Below, piece by piece: positions 1-23,600 of a stretch of DNA of 23,600 bases (the first letter of the stretch is position 1; the number at the start of each line of letters is the position of its first letter). Origin of the DNA: a virus; the IMG/VR virus record IMGVR_UViG_3300025655_000298, positions 1 to 23,600 of that record; one strand, written 5' to 3'. The notes under the pieces were generated by a model that saw only the letters and a program-made list of their open reading frames with translations, ran no database searches and was not told the DNA's origin. Both the position numbers and the translations under genes were made by a program.

Positions 1-84
1 AAAGACGTTCTTGGCGATACGACTTTTGAGTATGAAGTCGCTGCAAGGTCTATCTACGAAAAATGGACGCCTTGGAGCCGGTAA
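1..84 (+). CDS. C-terminal fragment of an unidentified upstream gene
   Basis: The frame is open from base 1 and ends at TAA (82-84), giving the last 27 residues of a protein whose start lies outside the window. The tail ends in ...EKWTPWSR. Its stop codon shares one base with the ATG of the HNH gene (TAATG), so the two are probably translationally coupled parts of one plus-strand operon with the AlpA-like gene and integrase. I do not recognise the family from so short a piece. Being real coding sequence is supported mainly by this tight overlap. Confidence 0.5.
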   Translation, partial: KDVLGDTTFEYEVAARSIYEKWTPWSR

Positions 85-461
85 TGGGTAAACGCCTAGA
101 ATTTTCCCGCAAGGTTCGCAAGCAGATTATCGACCGCGCCGATGGCAAGTGCGAGAAATGCGGCAGCGCTTTGAAAGCGGGGGAAGGCGATGCCGACCAC
201 ATATTGCCGTCAGAACTAGGCGGGAAAGCTGAAGCGGCGAACGGCCAATGGCTTTGCAAGATATGCCACAAGGCAAAGACCGCCGATGATATAAAGCGCA
301 TCCGCAAAGCAGACCGCCAGCGGGACAAGGCAACGGGCGCGGTAAAGCCGAAAGGCTCGATGCCCAATCGAGGTTGGGAGAAAACAGAAAAGCGGCGCAA
401 GATCGACAAAGACGTGGTCGATGCCGCGTCCATATCCAGACGCAGGAGCCTATTCGCATGA
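84..461 (+). CDS. HNH endonuclease (phage-type, 125 aa)
   Basis: This is a small HNH nuclease of the zinc-ribbon type. From the ATG at 84, a basic N-terminal helix is followed by C23-x2-C26, the catalytic D38-H39 in ADHILP, N53, then C58-x2-C61-H62. The two CxxC pairs should hold a structural zinc, and DH/N/H form the beta-beta-alpha-metal nuclease site. An in-frame ATG at 63 exists, but the TAATG overlap with the preceding gene favours 84. The last bases overlap the AlpA-like gene (ATGA at 458). Phage HNH proteins of this size can act in DNA packaging or as mobile nucleases. Here the position before the integration genes does not decide the role. The C-terminal 60 residues are very basic, which suits DNA binding. 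Confidence 0.8.
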   Translation: MGKRLEFSRKVRKQIIDRADGKCEKCGSALKAGEGDADHILPSELGGKAEAANGQWLCKICHKAKTADDIKRIRKADRQRDKATGAVKPKGSMPNRGWEKTEKRRKIDKDVVDAASISRRRSLFA

Positions 462-2543: not shown

Positions 2544-3601
2544 GACCGCGCCCTTAGCCACTTGAGATAATCCGCGCCCGCTTCAACGTCCTCATAGCAC
2601 GTCACAACAGGCGAACGCCGCCCCTGTGCAGGGTCCACAATGGCGAGTATGGCAGCACCATTGTGATGTTCTGGAAAGCCCTTGACAAGCGCGTAATCGT
2701 CAAAGTGCTTGTAGCCCCGAAGCTGCATCAACCAGCAAAGATGGTTTCGCCTTGCGACTTCCAACTGTTCCATGGCGAAATTGTGCGTATGGCCCGTGAC
2801 ATACAGGTCCGCTGTTTCGCCCATGACAGCCTCGCGCAACGTGCCATGCAGTTCGTTATAGATCGATGAACCTTTGCGCCCGTGCGATGCGTCAATGCGG
2901 ATTTCAGTGCCGCCAGGATGGCAAATCTTAAACTTCGCCCGCCAGTCAATGACTGGTATCTGTTTCGCGCCCAATCGCTTGTAGAACGAAGCACCGTTGT
3001 TCCATAGGTCATGATTGCCGAGAAGCCATATCAGCCAAGTCACGCCGCTTTCCAGCATAAACCATTTTGCCAGCCGGTCGGCTGTGCTGAGGCTTGTCTC
3101 CTGATCGGCATACTTGGCCATGAGACGGCCCACCCAATTGTTCGTGGTGTCCCCGATGTTCGCGCCGTATATGCCTTCTTGGCGAGCGACTTCGATATGC
3201 CTTTCCAGCATCGGCCAGTTGCAGCCGTCATCGTCAAGGTGCGGATCACCGAACCATAGAAGGCCATAAGGCTTGGTCTCCTGTATTCTGATCGGGAACC
3301 AGTTGCGCGCTTCTGTTGCCTTGCGCTTGCGCTCGAAATTCTGCGCCATGCGGGAACGGATTTGTTCAATTGGTTCTTGTTCGTCGCCGTCCTCGACAAA
3401 GGCGGGGAAACGAACCTCATGGAGTTTACCGGCGTAACGGCCGCTGGTAATCTGTTCAATGCGGTAATCGGTTGTTGATCTGCTGATGCCCAATTCGCGG
3501 GCGATGGCAGAAACAATAGGCTTGCCGTCCTCGTGCTGGTGTTTTTGCATCGCGGCAATGGTTGCCGCAATGTCCGTTTCGGAGAGCGTCCGACCGGCCA
3601 T
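2540..3601 (-). CDS. Metallophosphoesterase with N-terminal helix-turn-helix, 353 aa
   Basis: This is a calcineurin-like metal-dependent phosphoesterase. The motifs appear in order: D119-P-H121 (GDPHLD), G150-D151 with N154 (GDTTNN), G195-N-H-D198, H240 (ASHGRKG) and G270-H-T-H273. These are all the metal and catalytic blocks of the fold. Residues about 1-55 form a DNA-binding-like helix-turn-helix (ARELGISRSTTDYRIEQI), an unusual fusion partner. Start ATG 3601 has AGGTGA directly upstream. The substrate cannot be told from sequence; family members act on nucleotides, nucleic acids or phosphoproteins. Its place at the far end of the lysis region, near the control region, suggests an accessory function rather than virion structure. 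Confidence 0.88.
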   Translation of the reverse strand: MAGRTLSETDIAATIAAMQKHQHEDGKPIVSAIARELGISRSTTDYRIEQITSGRYAGKLHEVRFPAFVEDGDEQEPIEQIRSRMAQNFERKRKATEARNWFPIRIQETKPYGLLWFGDPHLDDDGCNWPMLERHIEVARQEGIYGANIGDTTNNWVGRLMAKYADQETSLSTADRLAKWFMLESGVTWLIWLLGNHDLWNNGASFYKRLGAKQIPVIDWRAKFKICHPGGTEIRIDASHGRKGSSIYNELHGTLREAVMGETADLYVTGHTHNFAMEQLEVARRNHLCWLMQLRGYKHFDDYALVKGFPEHHNGAAILAIVDPAQGRRSPVVTCYEDVEAGADYLKWLRARS

Positions 3602-3631
3602 CAGTCACCTATGGTTTTGTTTCGGGGATGA

Positions 3632-3853
3632 TTACTTGGCAGGAAAGCCAAGCCAAGGGATAAAGGCGGAAAGTTTCGCAGATACAAACCCGCCTAGTGC
3701 GGCCATGGCAAAGATTGCCCACCGCGCGCCTTTGGCCTGCTGGAGCAGGCTGTGCATTTCATCCACTTTCTTGGAAGTGGACGCCATGTCGTGCTGCATG
3801 GCCTTCATTTCCGCTTCAAGGCGGATGACTATATCTCTGGTATTGTCAGCCAT
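3632..3853 (-). CDS. Small coiled-coil membrane protein (XhlA-like layout), 73 aa
   Basis: Residues about 5-42 form a charged amphipathic helix likely to be a coiled coil (VIRLEAEMKAMQHDM, KKVDEMHSLLQQ). One hydrophobic segment follows (about 45-67: AIFAMAALGGFVSAKLSAFI), and a short tail. This coil-then-membrane layout and length match XhlA-type holin-associated proteins, but sequence similarity to that family cannot be tested here. ATG 3853 has GAGGT about 7 nt upstream. It lies 30 nt before the metallophosphoesterase and 9 nt after the 130-aa membrane protein gene, in the lysis region. A role in host lysis is inference. Confidence 0.65.
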   Translation of the reverse strand: MADNTRDIVIRLEAEMKAMQHDMASTSKKVDEMHSLLQQAKGARWAIFAMAALGGFVSAKLSAFIPWLGFPAK

Positions 3854-3862
3854 GTCACAACC

Positions 3863-4255
3863 TCAATAGCTTTCTGACGCGGGCGCATTGGCCTTGAACA
3901 CAAGATCAGAATTGGCTATGTTTGCCGCGACCTTTTCATTCATTGGCATCTTTGTTGCCCATGCCCCTGTGAGCGGGTTGGGGATGACGCAATCGTTTTG
4001 AAACATCACCAGAACCACATCACTGGAATTGCTGAAAAGCACATAGACAAAACTGAAAGCAGGGTCATCGGGATACACCCATCGATAAGCTTTGGCCCCG
4101 ACCTTTTCCTTTTTTGTGTGCTTGTCGAGGCTTTCCAATCTGTTTTCCAGCGTCATGCATTCTTGCGACCGCGCTTCATGCTGCACAAACACCACCATGG
4201 CAAGGAAGAAACAAGCCGCCCCGATCAGCAGCCACATTATCGAACGTCCTGTCAT
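3863..4255 (-). CDS. Membrane-anchored or exported protein of unknown function, 130 aa
   Basis: Residues 7-26 (MWLLIGAACFFLAMVVFVQH) are a clear signal anchor or signal peptide. The rest is soluble, with two cysteines after the membrane segment (in QECMTL and NDCVIP) that could form a disulfide in the periplasm, and a beta-rich middle (FSFVYVLFSNSSDVVLVMF). AAAGGG precedes ATG 4255 by about 7 nt. Its neighbours are the spanin-like lipoprotein and the XhlA-like gene, so a function at the envelope during lysis or as a superinfection-exclusion protein is possible. I recognise no family. Confidence 0.65.
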   Translation of the reverse strand: MTGRSIMWLLIGAACFFLAMVVFVQHEARSQECMTLENRLESLDKHTKKEKVGAKAYRWVYPDDPAFSFVYVLFSNSSDVVLVMFQNDCVIPNPLTGAWATKMPMNEKVAANIANSDLVFKANAPASESY

Positions 4256-4766: not shown

Positions 4767-5402
4767 CTATTTGCGGTTGCCCCAAACAAAGTTGGGAATG
4801 TTGCCCAATTCATCGGAACAAACGTCGAAGGAAGGGCAAGCCTTCGCCGCGTATTCATTGTGACCAGAAATTTTCTTGATGCGCTTATCCGCCGCAATCT
4901 GCTTTGTCAGCCAAATCATCGCGGCGCGTTGTTCTGCCGTGCGCGTATCCTTGGCTGTCTTGCCGTCACTGGACACTCCGCCGATATAAGTCGCGCCGAT
5001 AGTTCCCGTATTGCGGCCCGCTACATGCGCCCCTGTGCGCTCGTTATCGCGTCCGCGCTTGATTGTGCCGTCACGATACACGACGAAGTGATAGCCGATG
5101 CCAGACCATCCCCGCGCCCTGTGCCATTGGTCGATCTGATCCACCGTAAAGTCACGCCCTTCAGGCGTTGCCGCACAATGCCAAATCAGTTCGTTGACGG
5201 AACGCTTGGGCGGGGAATAGGAAAAATCCGGCGCGACTTCCTGTTGCTCGATGCCCGACATTTTGGTTCCGCCAAGTTCTTCCGCGTCGATCAATTCCAT
5301 AGAAGCTGTTAATGTCATCGGGCCAAAATCGCCATCAATCTTGCCCGCATACAGGGACAAGTCCGATAGCTTTTCCTGCCAGTCTTTCACAAACTTTGTC
5401 AC
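4767..5402 (-). CDS. N-acetylmuramoyl-L-alanine amidase endolysin, 211 aa
   Basis: This is a zinc amidase of the Amidase_2/PGRP (T7 lysozyme) family that cuts the bond between MurNAc and the stem peptide. Zinc ligands are H75 (LIWHCA), H181 (SGHNEY) and C189 (KACPSF). The H-to-C spacing of 8 and the lysine K187 two before the cysteine match the T7 enzyme, with Y104 (GYHFVVY) as the catalytic tyrosine. Residues about 5-38 (LSLYAGKIDGDFGPMT) resemble a short peptidoglycan-binding repeat. No signal peptide is present, so it needs the holin. GTG 5402 overlaps the hydrolase stop (GTGA) with GGAG about 8 nt upstream. The longer frame to 5594 is shadow sequence. Confidence 0.92.
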   Translation of the reverse strand: MTKFVKDWQEKLSDLSLYAGKIDGDFGPMTLTASMELIDAEELGGTKMSGIEQQEVAPDFSYSPPKRSVNELIWHCAATPEGRDFTVDQIDQWHRARGWSGIGYHFVVYRDGTIKRGRDNERTGAHVAGRNTGTIGATYIGGVSSDGKTAKDTRTAEQRAAMIWLTKQIAADKRIKKISGHNEYAAKACPSFDVCSDELGNIPNFVWGNRK

Positions 5403-5947
5403 CGCAAAATCTCCGCCATCTTGTTGACAATGATGCGGCGCGTTATCGGGTGGCTGGCGCTGGCAATGTGGCCCGCCGCAATGTGGTGCACCTTGTGCTG
5501 AACCTTGTAGGGGTTGACACACATGCCGCCGGGATCGCCCGTCTTGTTGCGCCTTGCCCATTTGGGGAAATTGATAAAGCCCTTTGTGGACCAAAACTCA
5601 TCGACGTATTCAACGTTGTCTGGAATCACCATCGGGTCATCTCTGGCCCGTAATGCTGTAGGGTCAATGGCTGCGAAATAGGCCACCTGAAAGCCTGCCT
5701 TGTCGAGAATGGCGCAGGCCTCCAATCCAGTCTTGACGCCCCAGGAATGGGCAAAGAACGCAATCCTTACCTTGTTTGGGCTGTGCTTGTTGATTATGTC
5801 CCGCGCTACGTCATCGGCATCCCAATAAGCATGATGGTCCGCGCCTGCCCTTGCTGGTAGATCGTCAATCAGCTTTTCAAGCGCACGGGTTCCGCCTGCC
5901 GTGAAGGGATAACCCAACCCGGCAAAGCCATGGCATTCATATTGCAT
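5399..5947 (-). CDS. Alpha/beta-hydrolase-like protein in the lysis cassette, 182 aa
   Basis: A nucleophile elbow, A66-H-S68-W-G70, follows a hydrophobic strand (VRIAFFAHSWG). A second strand with D95 (VAYFAAIDPT) and several histidines in the last third (H154, H155, H160, H166) give a possible Ser-Asp-His set. This is the plan of small serine esterases and lipases. It has no signal peptide. ATG 5947 has GAGG 6 nt upstream, and the stop overlaps the amidase start by 4 nt, so the two are coupled. Phage LysB proteins are serine esterases in lysis cassettes of mycobacteriophages; an analogous envelope-ester target here is inference. A role in tail or host metabolism cannot be excluded. Confidence 0.7.
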   Translation of the reverse strand: MQYECHGFAGLGYPFTAGGTRALEKLIDDLPARAGADHHAYWDADDVARDIINKHSPNKVRIAFFAHSWGVKTGLEACAILDKAGFQVAYFAAIDPTALRARDDPMVIPDNVEYVDEFWSTKGFINFPKWARRNKTGDPGGMCVNPYKVQHKVHHIAAGHIASASHPITRRIIVNKMAEILR

Positions 5948-16899: not shown

Positions 16900-17507
16900 G
16901 GAGTAATGCTCTGAATATGCAGGCCAGCCGATGCGATTTCCGCTGCATCATCCTGCCCGTGAATCATGCTGATATACCGCTCCAGCGCTGCCGCGTGCTT
17001 GGCGTATTCCGCATCATCCTTGATAAATTCTGCCGCTACCATCTGCCCCGCACAAAGGTAAACGTGCGGGTAACGGGTCAAAAGCCAATCTGTAGCGCTG
17101 TCGCTGGCAAACGCGCCGAGCCGCGCATAATACACGAAGTTGATGTCATTCGTGATGGTCGGGAACACTCGCAGGCTTGAACCTGTAATCGTGAAATACT
17201 GGCCAAGCCCCGATGGCCTGTCAGGGTAAACTTCCTCCGCTTCCTCCATCGTGATGTATTCCAGCGGCCTACGTTGCGATGCCTTTTCGACCACCATGCG
17301 CCATTGCGCGTAATCGGTCGGCAAGGTGAACACGCCCGCTGTCGGGGAAAGGTCAACGCTTGTCACCATTTCACGCGACCGCAACGTGGTATTCAGCATG
17401 GCCTGGGACAGGGTAACGATGTCAGCCGCTTCCGTGTCCACAATCCCCGCGTCAAACATGAAGTCTGCAATGCGGGTTTTCAGGTCGCCGTAGTTAGCAA
17501 GTGCCAT
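16896..17507 (-). CDS. Head-to-tail adaptor protein (SU10/P22 gp4-like), 203 aa
   Basis: The layout is that of podophage adaptors: an N-terminal helical part (YGDLKTRIADFMF, DIVTLSQAMLNTTLR), then strands TLPTDYAQWRMVVEKASQRRPLEYIT, YFTITGSSLRVFPT and INFVYYARL, followed by a helix bundle (WLLTRYPHVYLCAGQMVAAEFIKDDAEYAKHAAALERYI). Adaptors bind below the portal and receive the tail hub, encoded next. The ATG at 17507 shares one base with the stop of the HNH gene (TAATG). The family call is from fold pattern and context. Confidence 0.72.
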   Translation of the reverse strand: MALANYGDLKTRIADFMFDAGIVDTEAADIVTLSQAMLNTTLRSREMVTSVDLSPTAGVFTLPTDYAQWRMVVEKASQRRPLEYITMEEAEEVYPDRPSGLGQYFTITGSSLRVFPTITNDINFVYYARLGAFASDSATDWLLTRYPHVYLCAGQMVAAEFIKDDAEYAKHAAALERYISMIHGQDDAAEIASAGLHIQSITP

Positions 17508-17965
17508 TACGCCGCATCCCTATAGTTATGGAATTTTTCGTGAAAACGCCTTGCAAGAGCGGCATGTCGCATGTGTTCGTAGGTGCCTAAATACTTATTG
17601 GAAAGGTACGTCCGCCAAGCCCCGCATTCTTTTCTAACGCCGGGATGCCCGCTGCTATTGTTTTTGTACCGCGATTTGTTTTTCACGTTTAGGCTGCGCG
17701 GGACATCACGTAGATTTTCAATCCTGTTGTCCAACTTATTTCGGTTAATGTGGTCGATCTCATGTTTCGGCATTTCACCATGGAACATGCACCAAACCAG
17801 ACGATGCGTCGCATACCTAACGCCATCAACCGAAATCTGCGAATACCCGCGACTATCAACTCTCCCTGCCTCCGAACCGGCCAACGCCTTTCCGGTGCGG
17901 TCAACTCGCCAAAAGAGCTTGCCTTCCCTGTATTCTAACAGTTCCTTAAAGCGCTTCTGGTTCAT
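17507..17965 (-). CDS. Free-standing HNH homing-type endonuclease with AP2-like domain, 152 aa
   Basis: An HNH_3-type core, A52-T-H-R-L-V-W then H68-E-I-D71-H72-I-N74 and N80-R-I-E-N84-L-R, is followed by SSGHPGVRK, WRTYLSNKYLGTYEHMRHAALARRF, the pattern of an AP2-like DNA-binding repeat found in homing endonucleases. Residues 1-50 carry the usual FKELLEYREGKLFWRVD and GYSQISVDG lead-in. It sits between two small conserved head genes and the adaptor, with a base composition more A/T-rich than its neighbours, so it probably moved in as a free-standing mobile gene. It overlaps the preceding gene by 4 nt (ATGA) and the next by 1 nt, which suggests neat insertion between coupled genes. Confidence 0.85.
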   Translation of the reverse strand: MNQKRFKELLEYREGKLFWRVDRTGKALAGSEAGRVDSRGYSQISVDGVRYATHRLVWCMFHGEMPKHEIDHINRNKLDNRIENLRDVPRSLNVKNKSRYKNNSSGHPGVRKECGAWRTYLSNKYLGTYEHMRHAALARRFHEKFHNYRDAA

Positions 17966-19165: not shown

Positions 19166-20705
19166 TTAGGTGGAAGCGGTCAGGCCGTAGAGGTCAGCGG
19201 CTACAGCATGTGCGGCTTCATTGTGCACACACAGCGTATATTCGCAGACCATTACGCGCTTTTCCGCATCGCCCGTCTTGGCTGGCTTCTCGACCTTGAT
19301 GTCATCGAACACGCCAAGCGAGACCATTTCCGGGTCGATCAGGTAGGCATTGCGGGCAATGGAAGCACCCGCACGGGCCATCTGACGGTTCGGCACAACT
19401 GCAATCTCACCGAAGTCGGAGAGGTACATGTCAGCCGCCGCAATGATGGTGTTCTTCTTCGAGGATGAAGCGGCGTAGCGGAAAGGTGCCACGTCCGTGT
19501 CGTTCATGAAGGTTGAAAACACCGTCTTGACGTATGGCGAAACCATCAGCGCGGATGGATTGCCGCCCGCGTTATAGGCGTCCAGGATGATGCCATCCAG
19601 AATCGCCTTGGTAAACGCGCGCTGGTCGCCATTGGTTGCCGCATCGACAACGCCCGTGCCGCTGTTAAAGCCGCCAGATGCACCGTTTGCGCCGAGTGAA
19701 TCATTGGTGGCCAGCCAAGCGCGAAATGCGCCAAGCTTGCGGTTGGTTGCGCCGTCGCCAGAGCCAGCGGATGAAGCCTGATTGGAAAGCACGATGGCTT
19801 CCATGTCAATCTTCAGTTCCTTGCCCTTCTTGGCCACTTCACGCGCCAGTTCCGACTTCCGGCCCGCCTTGGAGGTCTTCTCCTGCGTGCGCGAAATGAT
19901 GATTTTCTTGTCGGAAATCTGCGTGTAGTTGCCAACGCGGGTGGTCGGCGTGATCGAGTCATAAGCCCAATCATTGCCTTCCGGCTGGTTGTTGTCGGTA
20001 TCGACAGAACCGAGCGTGTCGGTCTGCCATTCGGGATGCGTAGATACTACGTTATCGCGCCCGATCAGGGACAGAAACGGGGTTTCTTCCGAGTATGTTA
20101 CCGCAACGGCATTTAACCGCTGCTTCTGCATGTCTCCATGCAGTCCAGACTATATCATCGCTTTCGCGCGCGGCGCTCTTGGAGGAAATTACTGCCGTTG
20201 TCGCCTTCTCTGGCTTTCCTTGCCTGCGCACGAATGCGAACAGGCAATGAATGACTTGCCGGTCACATCGCTTAGCCTTTTGCTAAGAAATGTTCCACAC
20301 CAAGCACATTTGCCATTCCAGCGACGGTAGGCTCGTCCTCTAGTCGTTACACCTTCCTGAATGTTTCCATCCAGGCTTGGCTCGGGATTGCCCTCAGCAC
20401 CACCTGTTAGGGGTTTCCCCGAGTTCACCGCGTTTTCATTTTCTGCAGCATGTACCGCCCAATGACACCTGCAACACAATGTTAAGCCATTGCTGACTTC
20501 CCACCGCAATTCAGGATATTCTTTGAACGGCTTTATATGGTGCGCGTGCAACTCAATATCTGTTGCCCCGCAATGTTGGCACGTTGCCTTTTATGCTACA
20601 GAAACGGCCCTAAATTCAAGGCGTAATCTGCCAGATTTTGTCTGCGAGTTCTTCGCGGTTTCCTACCGCGCTGTACGTTTCGAAGGTATTGGATACCTGT
20701 GCCAT
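19166..20705 (-). CDS. Major capsid protein (SU10-type), split by a group I intron; spliced 336 aa
   Basis: The gene is in two exons: 20705..20619 (29 codons, ending ...DKIWQITP) and 20089..19166 (307 codons plus stop, beginning EETPFLSLIGRDNV). Unspliced translation would stop at TGA 20618-20616. The joined junction ITP-EETPFLSLIGR is the conserved N-terminal block of SU10-family major capsid proteins. The remainder (TDNNQPEGNDWAYDS, ISDKKIIISRTQEKTSKAGRKSELA, MVSPYVKTVFSTFMND, IAVVPNRQMARAGASIARNAYLIDPEMVSLGVFDDIKVEKPAKTGDAEKRVMVCEYTLCVHNEAAHAVA) fits the family too. Exons join in phase 0. AGGAG 8 nt upstream of ATG 20705 overlaps the scaffold stop. A reader without the intron would start at 20131, adding 14 false residues and losing exon 1. 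Confidence 0.9.
20090..20618 (-). ncRNA. Group I self-splicing intron in the major capsid gene, 529 nt
   Basis: P1: exon GCCT (20622-20619) pairs with intron GGGC (20610-20607), with the last exon U opposite G as required. The P/Q core region reads CTCGGGGAAACCCC and then AATCCCGAGCCAAGCC (about 20417-20370). R reads GTGTAACGACTAGAGG (around 20341), and S reads GATATAGTCT (around 20150). GACTA (20345-20341) pairs with TAGTC (20152-20148) as P7. P9 is CTGCATG-GAGA-CATGCAG (20143-20126), a GNRA-capped hairpin. A second stem pairs 20123-20117 with 20109-20103. The last intron base is G (20090). An HNH ORF lies between P1 and P8 and runs through the core. Confidence 0.9.
20189..20551 (-). CDS. 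Intron-encoded HNH endonuclease, overlapping the ribozyme core, 120 aa
   Basis: The HNH motif is L-H-A-H-H-I-K-P-F, then N in VSNGLTLC, then C-C-R-C-H. Just upstream in the same frame lies T-C-Q-H-C-G-A-T-D-I-E, the first zinc pair. The open frame begins only at 20590, right after a TAA, and holds no ATG, GTG or TTG before the TTG at 20551, which would omit that zinc pair. After the nuclease part the frame reads EGNPEPSLDGNIQEGVTTRG, which is the translated ribozyme core. A second zinc-like segment follows (GKCAWCG...ACSHSCAGK) with a basic end. The expected role is cutting intron-less capsid genes for homing. The 5' part looks truncated or uses an unusual start, so activity is uncertain. Confidence 0.7.
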   Translation of the reverse strand: MHAHHIKPFKEYPELRWEVSNGLTLCCRCHWAVHAAENENAVNSGKPLTGGAEGNPEPSLDGNIQEGVTTRGRAYRRWNGKCAWCGTFLSKRLSDVTGKSFIACSHSCAGKESQRRRQRQ

Positions 20706-20716
20706 GTTGATAGCTC

Positions 20717-21775
20717 CTAAAGGTCAAAGTCCATGAGAGCGTCAACAGCAGCCGTAAGCGATCCAGTCTTGCGCAGGCGGTCAGCCTTTGCCTTTCTGGT
20801 TTGTGATTCCTTGTTTGCCGTGGTTTTGACCTTGGAGGCCGAAAGCATCTTTGGCTTGTTTTCCAGTTTCGCTTTCGCCGCTGGTTTTGCCTGCTTGATT
20901 TTCTGGTATGCCAGAGCGTCAAGCATAATTTCCAGCGCCCGCGAGTCCGTGAACGTCGCGAGTTCTTCCGCCGAAACACCATACGTCTTTGAAAACGTTT
21001 CGGTGAGTTCGGTATAGGTCTGCTTTGCCTTTTCGGGGTTTTTCAGGTGCGGTCGCCTTTCCAGAAGGCGGGATCGTTGTTCCTGAACAAACTGCCGGGT
21101 TTGCTCCTGTGCTTCCTGTAGCTGGCGCTGCCGGTCTTGTTCCGACATTGCCTGCATCTGTTGGAAGTGAAGCATTTGGCCTTCATATGCTTCGCGTTGC
21201 TGCTGGTATTCGAGCCAAGCAATCGGATCTTCCGATGGCGATTCGGTCGGAGCCAGCGGCTGTTGCGGCATATAAGCCTGTTGCCACTGCATCAAGAAAT
21301 CGCGCTGTTGTGCTATCTGTTGCGCGGTTTGCAATACACGCTGGCTGTTTGCCTCCACTTCCCTGGCCTGTTCGGCAAGTTCGGTGGTTTTGCGCGTGTA
21401 ATCACGCTGGAAATCGGCAACACGCTGTTGCACTTGTCCGAAATCGGCTTTCAGTTCCGCAAGGGTGGCCTTACGACCGTCGCCAAGGTCAACAACGGTT
21501 TCGTCATCAAGCGTTGCCGCTTCTGATTCTTCCGCGTCTTCGTCGGTTTCGTCGTCAGATTCCTCGTCGTCGCTTTCCGCGTCTTCGGTTTCCTGCGTTT
21601 CCTCGCCGTCACCCAATTCCTCATCGGTTTCAGGTTCGGGCTGTTCATCCTGGACGTTTTCCTTTGCCGGTCCCGGTTCTGGGGGGCTTAGGATGTCTTC
21701 CAGCGCCGCTGCGCCTTCATCAAGTGTCAGCGGTTCGCTTGAAGCGGTCCCATTCGGGAGGTCGCTATCTTGCAT
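20717..21775 (-). CDS. Scaffolding protein, 352 aa
   Basis: The N-terminal third is extremely acidic (Glu/Asp-rich, about residues 20-100, e.g. EETQETEDAESDDEESDDE). It is followed by LDDETVVDLGDGRKATLAELKADFGQVQQRVADF, a long Gln/Glu-rich coiled coil, and a basic Lys-rich C-terminus (AKPAAKAKLENKPKM, RKAKADRLRK). This charge layout and the position between portal and major capsid genes are typical of podophage scaffolding proteins, which template capsid assembly and leave before or during packaging. ATG 21775 has AGAAGGA about 9 nt upstream; an upstream ATG at 21838 lacks a good site. The TAG stop overlaps the ribosome-binding site of the capsid gene. Confidence 0.82.
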   Translation of the reverse strand: MQDSDLPNGTASSEPLTLDEGAAALEDILSPPEPGPAKENVQDEQPEPETDEELGDGEETQETEDAESDDEESDDETDEDAEESEAATLDDETVVDLGDGRKATLAELKADFGQVQQRVADFQRDYTRKTTELAEQAREVEANSQRVLQTAQQIAQQRDFLMQWQQAYMPQQPLAPTESPSEDPIAWLEYQQQREAYEGQMLHFQQMQAMSEQDRQRQLQEAQEQTRQFVQEQRSRLLERRPHLKNPEKAKQTYTELTETFSKTYGVSAEELATFTDSRALEIMLDALAYQKIKQAKPAAKAKLENKPKMLSASKVKTTANKESQTRKAKADRLRKTGSLTAAVDALMDFDL

Positions 21776-21850
21776 GTTAAGTGGTCCTTCTAAGGGATTC
21801 GGCACGTCATCCGACGTTCCTTTTGAATGGCGATCCATTAGGAGCCATTA

Positions 21851-21870: not shown

Positions 21871-22113
21871 CTATACCTGCGTCGTGTCTCCGTCAGCGTT
21901 CAACGCTTCGACATACCTATGCAAGCGCAGCATAAATTCTTCCGCCGCGCGATAGGTAGCCTGTGACTTACGGATTGCATCGGCATCGGTGGCATCTGCT
22001 GCCGCCAATTCCTGCAAGCTGTCCGCCATGATGCGGGACACAGTGAGATTCAACACCGGGTCTTTCAGAAGCCTTTCAGCTTCCACCGCCAATTGTTCGT
22101 CTGTGAAATCCAT
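21871..22113 (-). CDS. Small helical protein between portal and scaffold, 80 aa
   Basis: It is entirely alpha-helical by pattern: MDFTDEQLAVEAERLLKDPVLNLTVSRIMADSLQEL, then DADAIRKSQATYRAAEEFMLRLHRYVEAL. It resembles the small helical proteins that follow the terminase or portal in many phages, for which no function is settled. The ATG at 22113 shares one base with the portal stop (TAATG), so it is translationally coupled. There is no membrane segment and there are no cysteines. Confidence 0.65.
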   Translation of the reverse strand: MDFTDEQLAVEAERLLKDPVLNLTVSRIMADSLQELAAADATDADAIRKSQATYRAAEEFMLRLHRYVEALNADGDTTQV

Positions 22114-23600
22114 TACCCAGGTTCCCCGCCCATGTGGACGCCGCTGGTCGCCACCATCGTAGCACCATTGACGTTCGTAGCGTGCAGGCCCAATTCGCGC
22201 TTGATCTGCAATTCAGCTTGCATCTGTTCCCGCTTCAATTGCAGTTCCGCCGCAAGCTGCTCTCGCTTCAATTGCAATTCGGCAGTCAACTGCTCCCGCT
22301 TGATCTGAATATCGGCTTCCATTTTCTGCCGGGTTTGTTCCGTATCCGCCATAGCCTTTTGCTGCATCAACTGCGCATCCATCTGCGCTTTTTGCTGTTC
22401 GGCCTGCATATCGAATTGCGTCTTTTGCATTTCCATCTGCATCTTGGCTTTTTCGACTTCCGCCTTCGGATCAGGTTGCGGCTGCTGTGCAATCTGCAAC
22501 ATGCGCTGCAAGTCTTCCGGCGTGAAATCGATGTGGTAATCATCCGCATTGCGAAGGCCAGCCGATTCACCAATCTTGACCAGCGTCTTTACAATCTTTG
22601 GCAGGTATTCCAGCGCCTTTTGCGGTTCGTTCCGATCGGCCAATTGTGCCGCCATCATGGTCTGGTGCTGTAGAACCTGACTAAGCATCATCATGTCGCG
22701 GTCTTTGGAGCCTGTTCCAAGCCCTACATTGACCACGCAGTCCATTTCCGCGTTCCAGTGGCGCGGGTCCATCTGCACCCATTCACCGCGCAGCCTGACC
22801 ACTTCCTGGCGGTCCTGGTGCTTTACATACAGCCGCAATAGCTTGCGCCCGACATTGGCCCAGCCTTCTGCCATGTTTCGCGCCAGCAATTCCTGTTTCG
22901 CGCGGGATGCATCATGCGCGTTCTGGTTTGCCGTGGCTGACTGGTTCTGCAAGGCTTCGGCGTCCAGCGCCATTGCCATCTTGGAAACGCCTGTGCGCTT
23001 CTGCATTTCCTCATCGATATAGGCAATTCCCGCCAATGCCTTGTCACCGATAAACGGCACAACCTGCGGAACAATCGGCTGCGAACCTTTGCGCTTGATG
23101 ATTGGTTGCCCGAATTTCGGGTTAATCAGCGCATCCTTGTTGATTACCGAGCCTTCCTCAACCTCCTTCTGCGGGTTGTTCACCGCATACAGGTTATCAA
23201 GCATCTGGCGCGTTAGAACCGTCTTGATGCGCTCCAGGTCCATTGTATCATCGGCAATCGACATCCCGTCGAAGCGATGCGGCATCGGAAAGCAGTCGAT
23301 CTTGTCGAATGGGTGATCGTCTTCAACAATCTCCCAATCCAGCAATTCGCCAGAACCATGTGCGCCAGCGAAATAAGCCCTGACGTTTTCCGATACGCCA
23401 TCGCCGTCCATGTCGGCTTTCAGATAGCACTCGTAAATCTCGATCAGTTCGGTTGACGGGTCCATGCTGTCGTCAACTTCCACGCGGTCTTCCAGCCGCG
23501 CCAGTTCTTCCTCCGAAAACTGCTGCGAATTGTCATCCGAAAGCGCCATGACCTTATCGCGGTCGAAGCCCATTTCAATCAGTTCTGAACGGGTCTTTTC
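22113..23600 (-). CDS. Portal protein, C-terminal 495 residues (cut by window edge)
   Basis: The open frame reaches the right edge (first visible residues EKTRSELIEMGFDRD), so the N-terminus lies outside. Visible parts match podophage portals: LIEIYECYLKADMDGDGVSENVRAYFAG, DDHPFDKIDCFPMPHRFDGMSIAD, RTVLTRQMLDNLYAVNNPQKEVEEG-type block, RTGVSKMAMALDAEALQNQSATANQ and WVQMDPRHWNAEMDCVVNVGLGTGSKDRDMMML. Then a long Gln/Met/Lys-rich coiled coil (about the last 140 residues), built in part of four 11-residue repeats, recalls the portal barrel of P22. The portal is the dodecameric entry for DNA and binds scaffold, terminase and adaptor. The stop overlaps the next ATG by 1 nt. Confidence 0.85.
   Translation of the reverse strand, partial: EKTRSELIEMGFDRDKVMALSDDNSQQFSEEELARLEDRVEVDDSMDPSTELIEIYECYLKADMDGDGVSENVRAYFAGAHGSGELLDWEIVEDDHPFDKIDCFPMPHRFDGMSIADDTMDLERIKTVLTRQMLDNLYAVNNPQKEVEEGSVINKDALINPKFGQPIIKRKGSQPIVPQVVPFIGDKALAGIAYIDEEMQKRTGVSKMAMALDAEALQNQSATANQNAHDASRAKQELLARNMAEGWANVGRKLLRLYVKHQDRQEVVRLRGEWVQMDPRHWNAEMDCVVNVGLGTGSKDRDMMMLSQVLQHQTMMAAQLADRNEPQKALEYLPKIVKTLVKIGESAGLRNADDYHIDFTPEDLQRMLQIAQQPQPDPKAEVEKAKMQMEMQKTQFDMQAEQQKAQMDAQLMQQKAMADTEQTRQKMEADIQIKREQLTAELQLKREQLAAELQLKREQMQAELQIKRELGLHATNVNGATMVATSGVHMGGEPG
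22198..22329. repeat. Four 33-bp repeats in the portal coiled coil
   Basis: Units begin with CGCTT at 22198, 22231, 22264 and 22297, each 33 bp. They encode 11-residue blocks of the type AELQLKREQLA. Hendecads give a straight or slightly right-handed coiled coil. The copies differ at many third positions, so they are old. Confidence 0.85.

Follow-up and report, generated by a model that had tools for sequence, protein, structure and literature searches.

The window, a 23,600-nt stretch of viral DNA, carries on its minus strand a major capsid gene that comes after the portal (22113-23573) and scaffold (20717-21838) genes and is split by an insert of exactly 529 nt. Two free-standing HNH genes also occur in the window, one among the structural genes (17507-17965, minus strand; phrog_99, 4.5e-50) and one adjoining an integrase gene at 691-1749 (63-461, plus strand). 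The features of the split gene are the following:

20705..20619, minus strand: exon 1 of the major capsid gene, 29 codons (MAQVSN...WQITP), from translation and alignment with intronless relatives
20618..20090, minus strand: group I intron, 529 nt, from RF00028, intronless relatives, the P1 U.G pair, the terminal G and covariation over 13 aligned introns
20607..20622, minus strand: P1 helix, exon GCCU with internal guide GGGC, U.G at the splice site
20590..20189, minus strand: remnant of a homing endonuclease frame, 133 codons (HNH, core-coded linker, C-terminal zinc finger), lacking a start codon and lying right after a TAA
20426..20432, minus strand: P3 5' strand (CGCGGUG), from the RF00028 match and the pairing model; three of seven pairs changed on both sides
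20341..20347, minus strand: R element and P7 5' strand (ACGACUA), from the RF00028 match and the pairing model
20169..20175, minus strand: P3 3' strand (CGCCGCG), after the stretch of ~140 nt that codes the C-terminal zinc finger
20148..20156, minus strand: S element and P7 3' strand (GAUAUAGUC), from the RF00028 match and the pairing model
20126..20143, minus strand: P9 hairpin with a GAGA loop; all cells paired, six of seven pairs changed on both sides
20089..19166, minus strand: exon 2 of the major capsid gene, EETPF... to the stop, from Pfam SU10_MCP on the spliced protein

Exon 1, with a GGAG ribosome-binding site just upstream, encodes MAQVSNTFETYSAVGNREELADKIWQITP and is followed directly by TGA. 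The frame resumes at 20089 with EETPFLSLIGR, and joining the exons gives a single in-frame protein of 336 aa. This product is an SU10-type major capsid protein by its match to Pfam SU10_MCP (PF17236, 8.7e-90), and it also matches the PHROG family 'major head protein' (2.3e-102). Because 74 of the window's 80 best capsid relatives run uninterrupted across the insertion site, both intron boundaries are fixed independently of any ribozyme model. A cmscan search of the window places RF00028 Intron_gpI at 20474-20126 on the minus strand, scoring 56.1 bits (gathering score, 50 bits; E 5.5e-12) over the full model (1-253). The initial annotation had put a group I intron at 20090-20618, dividing the capsid gene at TPEETPF after a 29-codon exon ending in ...WQITP, and had proposed an Rfam search and an SU10-type spliced product; its placement is correct to the base, and the translation, the Rfam match and the Pfam match agree with the rest. 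On these sequence comparisons, the assignment to a group I intron in an SU10-type major capsid gene, at its TP/EETPF block (slash, insertion point), is well supported.

The landmarks listed earlier for the ribozyme were all located in the window: the U.G P1, the core with P4 and P6, R, S with a 5-bp P7, the GAGA-capped P9 and the terminal G. A P1 helix with U.G at the 5' splice site is present in all 14 introns of the family described below, and guide and exon covary across relatives in five P1 helices (GCCU/GGGC, GACU/GGUC, GUCU/GGAC, GGUU/GACC and GCUU/GAGC). An alignment of 13 intron cores (A2) was examined with a 47-pair model in which P7 forms a pseudoknot. P3, P4-P6, P7 (R/S), P8 and P9 are paired and conserved in it; 96.2% of cells are paired and 27 of the 47 pairs have changed on both sides, in rows that are not phylogenetically independent. 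Shuffled controls gave 80.6% paired cells and 13.6 double-changed pairs, none of 500 shuffles being as high as the observed alignment, and slid versions gave at most 43.4% and 8 double-changed pairs. A candidate P3 3' strand immediately after R (CUACCGUCG) was rejected, since CGCCGCG before P8 pairs perfectly and covaries.

Subgroup IA introns have extra helices, P7.1/P7.2, between P7 and P3. In the capsid family, the P7 5' strand and the P3 3' strand are separated by an insert of 141-176 nt, which in many copies contains a GGCAGUAAUGCC-type hairpin; P7.1 lies outside the pairing model. A covariance model built from A2 matches introns of Rhizobium phage RHph_N3_13 (94.6 bits) and of DSS3_VP1 (86.9 bits), and the ribozyme is therefore of a widespread phage type. 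The family's own scores with this model are not independent, because both alignment and model were made from these introns. Run against the uninterrupted capsid genes, the A2 model gave no match at the insertion site; elsewhere in those genes it gave only a weak partial match (20 bits), on the opposite strand of L007, and found a different intron further upstream in L043.

Relatives of the element were found by searching with the window's 133-codon frame and then with an alignment of full-length homologues; such homologues occur in L069/L113, L084, L085, L086 and L100-L115. Long matches came from 16 loci, several of them contigs already found, and a capsid gene was recognised beside the element in all 16, on both sides where the contig extends far enough. 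The element follows about codon 28-31 of the capsid gene. Exact boundaries could be set for 14 introns including the window's, and the relatives measure 902-982 nt versus 529 in the window. All 14 join their exons in frame to ..P/xxTPF or ..Px/xTPF, at two insertion points one codon apart: ITP/EETPF in the window, L113 (= L069), L114 and L112, and DPT/DTPF in the others. The same intron family is thus present in 13 other metagenomic phages within one codon of the window site, in capsids about 37-71% identical. It is highly probable, jointly with the complete explanation set out below, that these introns form a phage family confined to a single capsid site, with the window's copy as a member.

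Among 13 intact members scanned, only L069 and L084 reach the RF00028 gathering score; L100, L101, L103, L105, L108, L110, L112, L114 and L115 fall below it, an effect apparently due to the zinc-finger insert that separates P7 from P3'. Since that threshold missed most members, loci were sought through the endonuclease and verified with the custom covariance model. Standard annotation is likely to record SU10-type capsid genes with such introns as truncated. The intact relatives all come from metagenomic contigs. Among 50,697 phage records, no isolate carried the full element; the best coverage was 61% and none reached 80%. A prophage search restricted to one genome per species returned weak HNH matches only.

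The distribution fits an ordinary mobile element with a sporadic presence and a homing endonuclease frame. Within the window's 80 best capsid relatives, the intron occurs only in two contigs with the identical allele and in L069. Of 23 relatives of L100 with readable junctions, 21 are uninterrupted, L100 itself (L134) carries the intron, and L154 has a different intron without an endonuclease beside the site. Intron-plus and intron-minus alleles therefore coexist, and the element is more alike than its host genes: in all 36 pairs compared, identity is higher for the endonuclease than for the capsid (62% and 37%, respectively, for the window and L102), a difference that may partly reflect RNA constraint on the shared core and not transfer.

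The initial annotation had recognised the ribozyme, but it overlooked the endonuclease remnant, the deletion and the core-threading frame of the relatives. In intron frame 1, the remnant runs from an HNH domain (KATCQHCGATDIELHAHHIKPF...CRCHW) through a core-coded segment (NAVNSGKPL...EGVTTRGRAYRRW) to a zinc finger (CAWC...CSHSC). Its HNH part matches PF01844 at 2.4e-07, above the cut-off, and the intron thus encodes an HNH domain. An intact translatable endonuclease is absent from the window copy, which lacks the start and ~120 N-terminal residues that all intact relatives possess. Its nearest full-length relative is L113 (capsid 71%, endonuclease 75%), against which the whole part of the frame ahead of the HNH is missing, the start region and the two N-terminal fingers included. 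The window intron is 373-453 nt shorter than the intact relatives, 373 being the difference from L113. Assembly error was ruled out as the source of the deletion, the identical 529-nt intron being present in two further contigs (3300007542_000939 and 3300010299_002009). The remnant frame is still open, which may mean that the loss is recent or that the RNA core keeps part of the frame intact. A splicing-only, formerly mobile intron is the simplest reading of this copy, which most likely retains splicing competence and is no longer self-mobile.

In the intact relatives, the endonuclease comprises about 259-287 residues, depending on the start chosen, and consists of two zinc fingers, the HNH domain, a segment coded by the ribozyme core from P3 to P7, and a further zinc finger. 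The C-terminal finger (C-x2-C...FCS-x-x-C) is of the type common to the N-terminal fingers. In L100, L102, L105, L107, L109 and L115, the protein has a tail that stops precisely at the P7 3' strand (..DDIV, GAUAUAGUCUGA). The spacing between P3 and R was measured in 12 of the 14 introns; it is 87 nt except for 93 in L112, always a multiple of 3 and hence keeping the reading frame; the remaining two are gap-free against the others in the P3-R stretch of A2. HNH and core are joined without a stop in all 14 copies, so the nuclease, if made, must include the core-coded residues.

Codon divergence distinguishes the core from its flanks. The excess of third-position divergence over positions 1-2 is 0.337 (CI 0.268-0.403) in the HNH and 0.219 (CI 0.163-0.277) in the C-terminal finger, whereas in the core it is 0.043 with an interval that includes zero (CI -0.018 to 0.107). 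Protein selection thus flanks the core, and RNA structure dominates within it. In an AlphaFold model of the endonuclease, residues 176-200, 204-212 and 258-279 fall below pLDDT 50 (mean 65.5), values that are weak proof of disorder given the shallow alignment of 12 sequences. The core-coded residues of L100 are 178-210, and those coded by its P7.2-P7' tail are 264-279. As supporting evidence, the model suggests that the RNA core coincides with parts of the protein that look like a loose linker or tail.

We favour, with moderate confidence, a broader interpretation in which one stretch serves both as ribozyme core and as coding sequence for an internal linker of the intron's own endonuclease, with folded conserved domains on both sides. 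Splicing and nuclease synthesis would then be mutually exclusive on each transcript, and the window would represent the outcome of losing the nuclease end. If true, this would be a stable internal overlap of ribozyme and protein, beyond what terminal 'core creep' alone explains. After creep, the P7-P3' insert could have acquired the extra finger, a history of core creep and then domain gain. Searches of the open-licence literature for an ORF that traverses an entire group I core yielded only reviews of ORF-end overlaps and fungal mitochondrial papers, and an earlier description may have been missed. We regard the core-threading endonuclease of this family, together with its decayed copy in the window, as the novelty.

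Predicted leader folds place a hairpin over the endonuclease's ribosome-binding site in 9 of 12 intact members (L100, L101, L102, L105, L107, L108, L109, L110 and L112). Such a hairpin may limit translation of the endonuclease, which would be sensible if ribosomes crossing the core block splicing. A conserved UGAnGUAGUAUnAU-like motif also lies between P1 and the endonuclease start (L102:2946-2998, and the same stretch in L100, L105, L109 and L110); its resemblance to a -10 box would suit a nuclease promoter, or it may belong to P2.

Taken as a whole, the locus is very probably explained by a spliced capsid intron of a one-site family whose endonuclease has been lost by deletion in the window. 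By the standard pathway, guanosine would attack after the P1 U.G pair, and the freed exon 1 would attack after the terminal G, joining the exons into the message for the 336-aa capsid protein. In the intact relatives, an HNH endonuclease would be read in a single frame into and through the ribozyme core, its zinc fingers and HNH domain lying before P3, the core supplying a flexible linker, and the further finger lying between P7 and P3'. Once made, this enzyme would be expected to cut intronless capsid alleles and so spread the intron. The hairpin over its ribosome-binding site, predicted in most copies, would stop ribosomes from unfolding the core. The window copy, without the first ~120 codons and the start, should splice but would not home by itself.

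Other readings of the capsid gene itself dispense with splicing or give the intron a role. The capsid could be translated from an internal start at 20131 (MQKQRLNAVAVTYSEETPF...), exon 1 being a short leader or dead piece; an ATG-started frame of 321 codons does exist there, and L113 is likewise in frame from the corresponding ATG. We consider this extremely improbable, as exon 1 is conserved as the N-terminus of the 74 uninterrupted relatives, the extra N-terminal residues correspond to the ribozyme's P9 region (which contains stops in other members such as L100 and L102), and P1 tracks the exon changes. A real intron makes capsid yield dependent on its splicing, which the initial annotation took as a possible link to host state (GTP, Mg2+, translation); the intron might then have been retained as a regulator of capsid production. 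This too is very improbable: no result of the analysis favours such a role, the intron is rare at a site that is mostly uninterrupted, it has the distribution of a mobile element, and no regulatory element was seen in it.

The endonuclease frame can also be read in other ways. The window intron might still be self-mobile if its 133-codon frame, open to the stop and carrying a recognisable HNH, were translated from a cryptic start (e.g., TTG at 20551) into a working minimal nuclease, and homing endonucleases can use non-AUG starts. This is quite unlikely, because the frame begins right after a TAA and offers no ATG, GTG or TTG upstream of its first Cys pair for zinc binding, every intact relative is longer by about 120 N-terminal residues that include two zinc fingers, and the start with its hairpin-covered ribosome-binding site, found in most of those relatives, is absent. 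For the family at large, the HNH and the C-terminal finger might be two separate genes flanking the core, with the open frame through it a coincidence. The core's unclear third-position signal and an in-frame GTG within P3 are compatible with such an arrangement. It is nevertheless quite unlikely, since HNH translation must run on into the core in every copy, core length varies by just 6 nt, and the fingers at the two ends of the protein share one type. The preferred reading remains a single endonuclease frame that threads the core and has decayed in the window.

Capsid genes were described by the initial annotation as less usual hosts for phage introns, which is fair, but there are precedents in mycobacteriophage LittleE and lactococcal phage Tuc2009 (PMC3706429), and the insertion itself is a further case of a known type. 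The LittleE intron is spliced in vivo, as demonstrated by RT-PCR and by N-terminal sequence across the junction (PMC3706429). It resembles the window's in being a probable group I intron in a major capsid gene, with exon 1 ending in U and the intron in G, a homing endonuclease frame inside, and intronless relatives. LittleE differs in its HK97-type capsid, its length of 819 nt and a LAGLIDADG-like frame on the opposite strand, and its splicing is proven, whereas the window intron is expected to splice from its sequence features.

'Core creep' provides the closest comparison for the overlap. Five tabulated overlaps of endonuclease and core span 0-81 nt (20 nt for I-TevI) and were explained as extensions of ORF ends; the cases include T4 td/I-TevI, B. 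thuringiensis nrdF and the Synechococcus lividus LSU intron (PMC3073962). In those cases, as in the capsid family, the protein frame shares nucleotides with ribozyme helices, and the hairpin-covered ribosome-binding site of I-TevI (PMC3073962) has a predicted counterpart in the capsid introns. The capsid family differs in that its frame crosses P3-P7 (about 97 nt) internally, continuing into a conserved domain and often to P7'. The introns of RHph_N3_13 (in ribonucleotide reductase) and DSS3_VP1 (in terminase) also interrupt conserved genes and share the ribozyme family by covariance model, but they occupy other host genes and carry a separate ORF after the R element. The out-of-frame HNH insertion of ShiLan likewise combines an HNH with flanking zinc fingers and overlapping frames; no group I core was found there (PMC11855218), in contrast to the canonical covarying core of the capsid family.

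Within a capsid gene, which is highly expressed, an intron has to be removed with great efficiency, which makes the locus a natural test of ribozyme efficiency. The family supplies natural variants whose bases must satisfy both ribozyme and protein, together with a decayed copy relieved of the protein demand. Both the merging of intron and nuclease and the control of translation through a folded ribozyme thereby become directly testable.

SU10-type capsid genes look like an intron hotspot, with further group I introns or insertions at other sites. These lie at about codon 5 with an HNH (L043:2500-3060), at codon 22 with a different HNH frame that stops at the core (L091:2340-3450), next to the family site without any ORF (L154:1486-1782), at about codon 45 with a LAGLIDADG-like frame (L086:3638-4375; L086/L109) and at about codon 114 (L107:3969-4188). 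The capsid gene of L114 seems to hold two group I introns, the second near 5151, and that of L115 (3338-5654) seems to hold three, with covariance-model matches near 3338-3770, 3847-4029 and 5236-5404.
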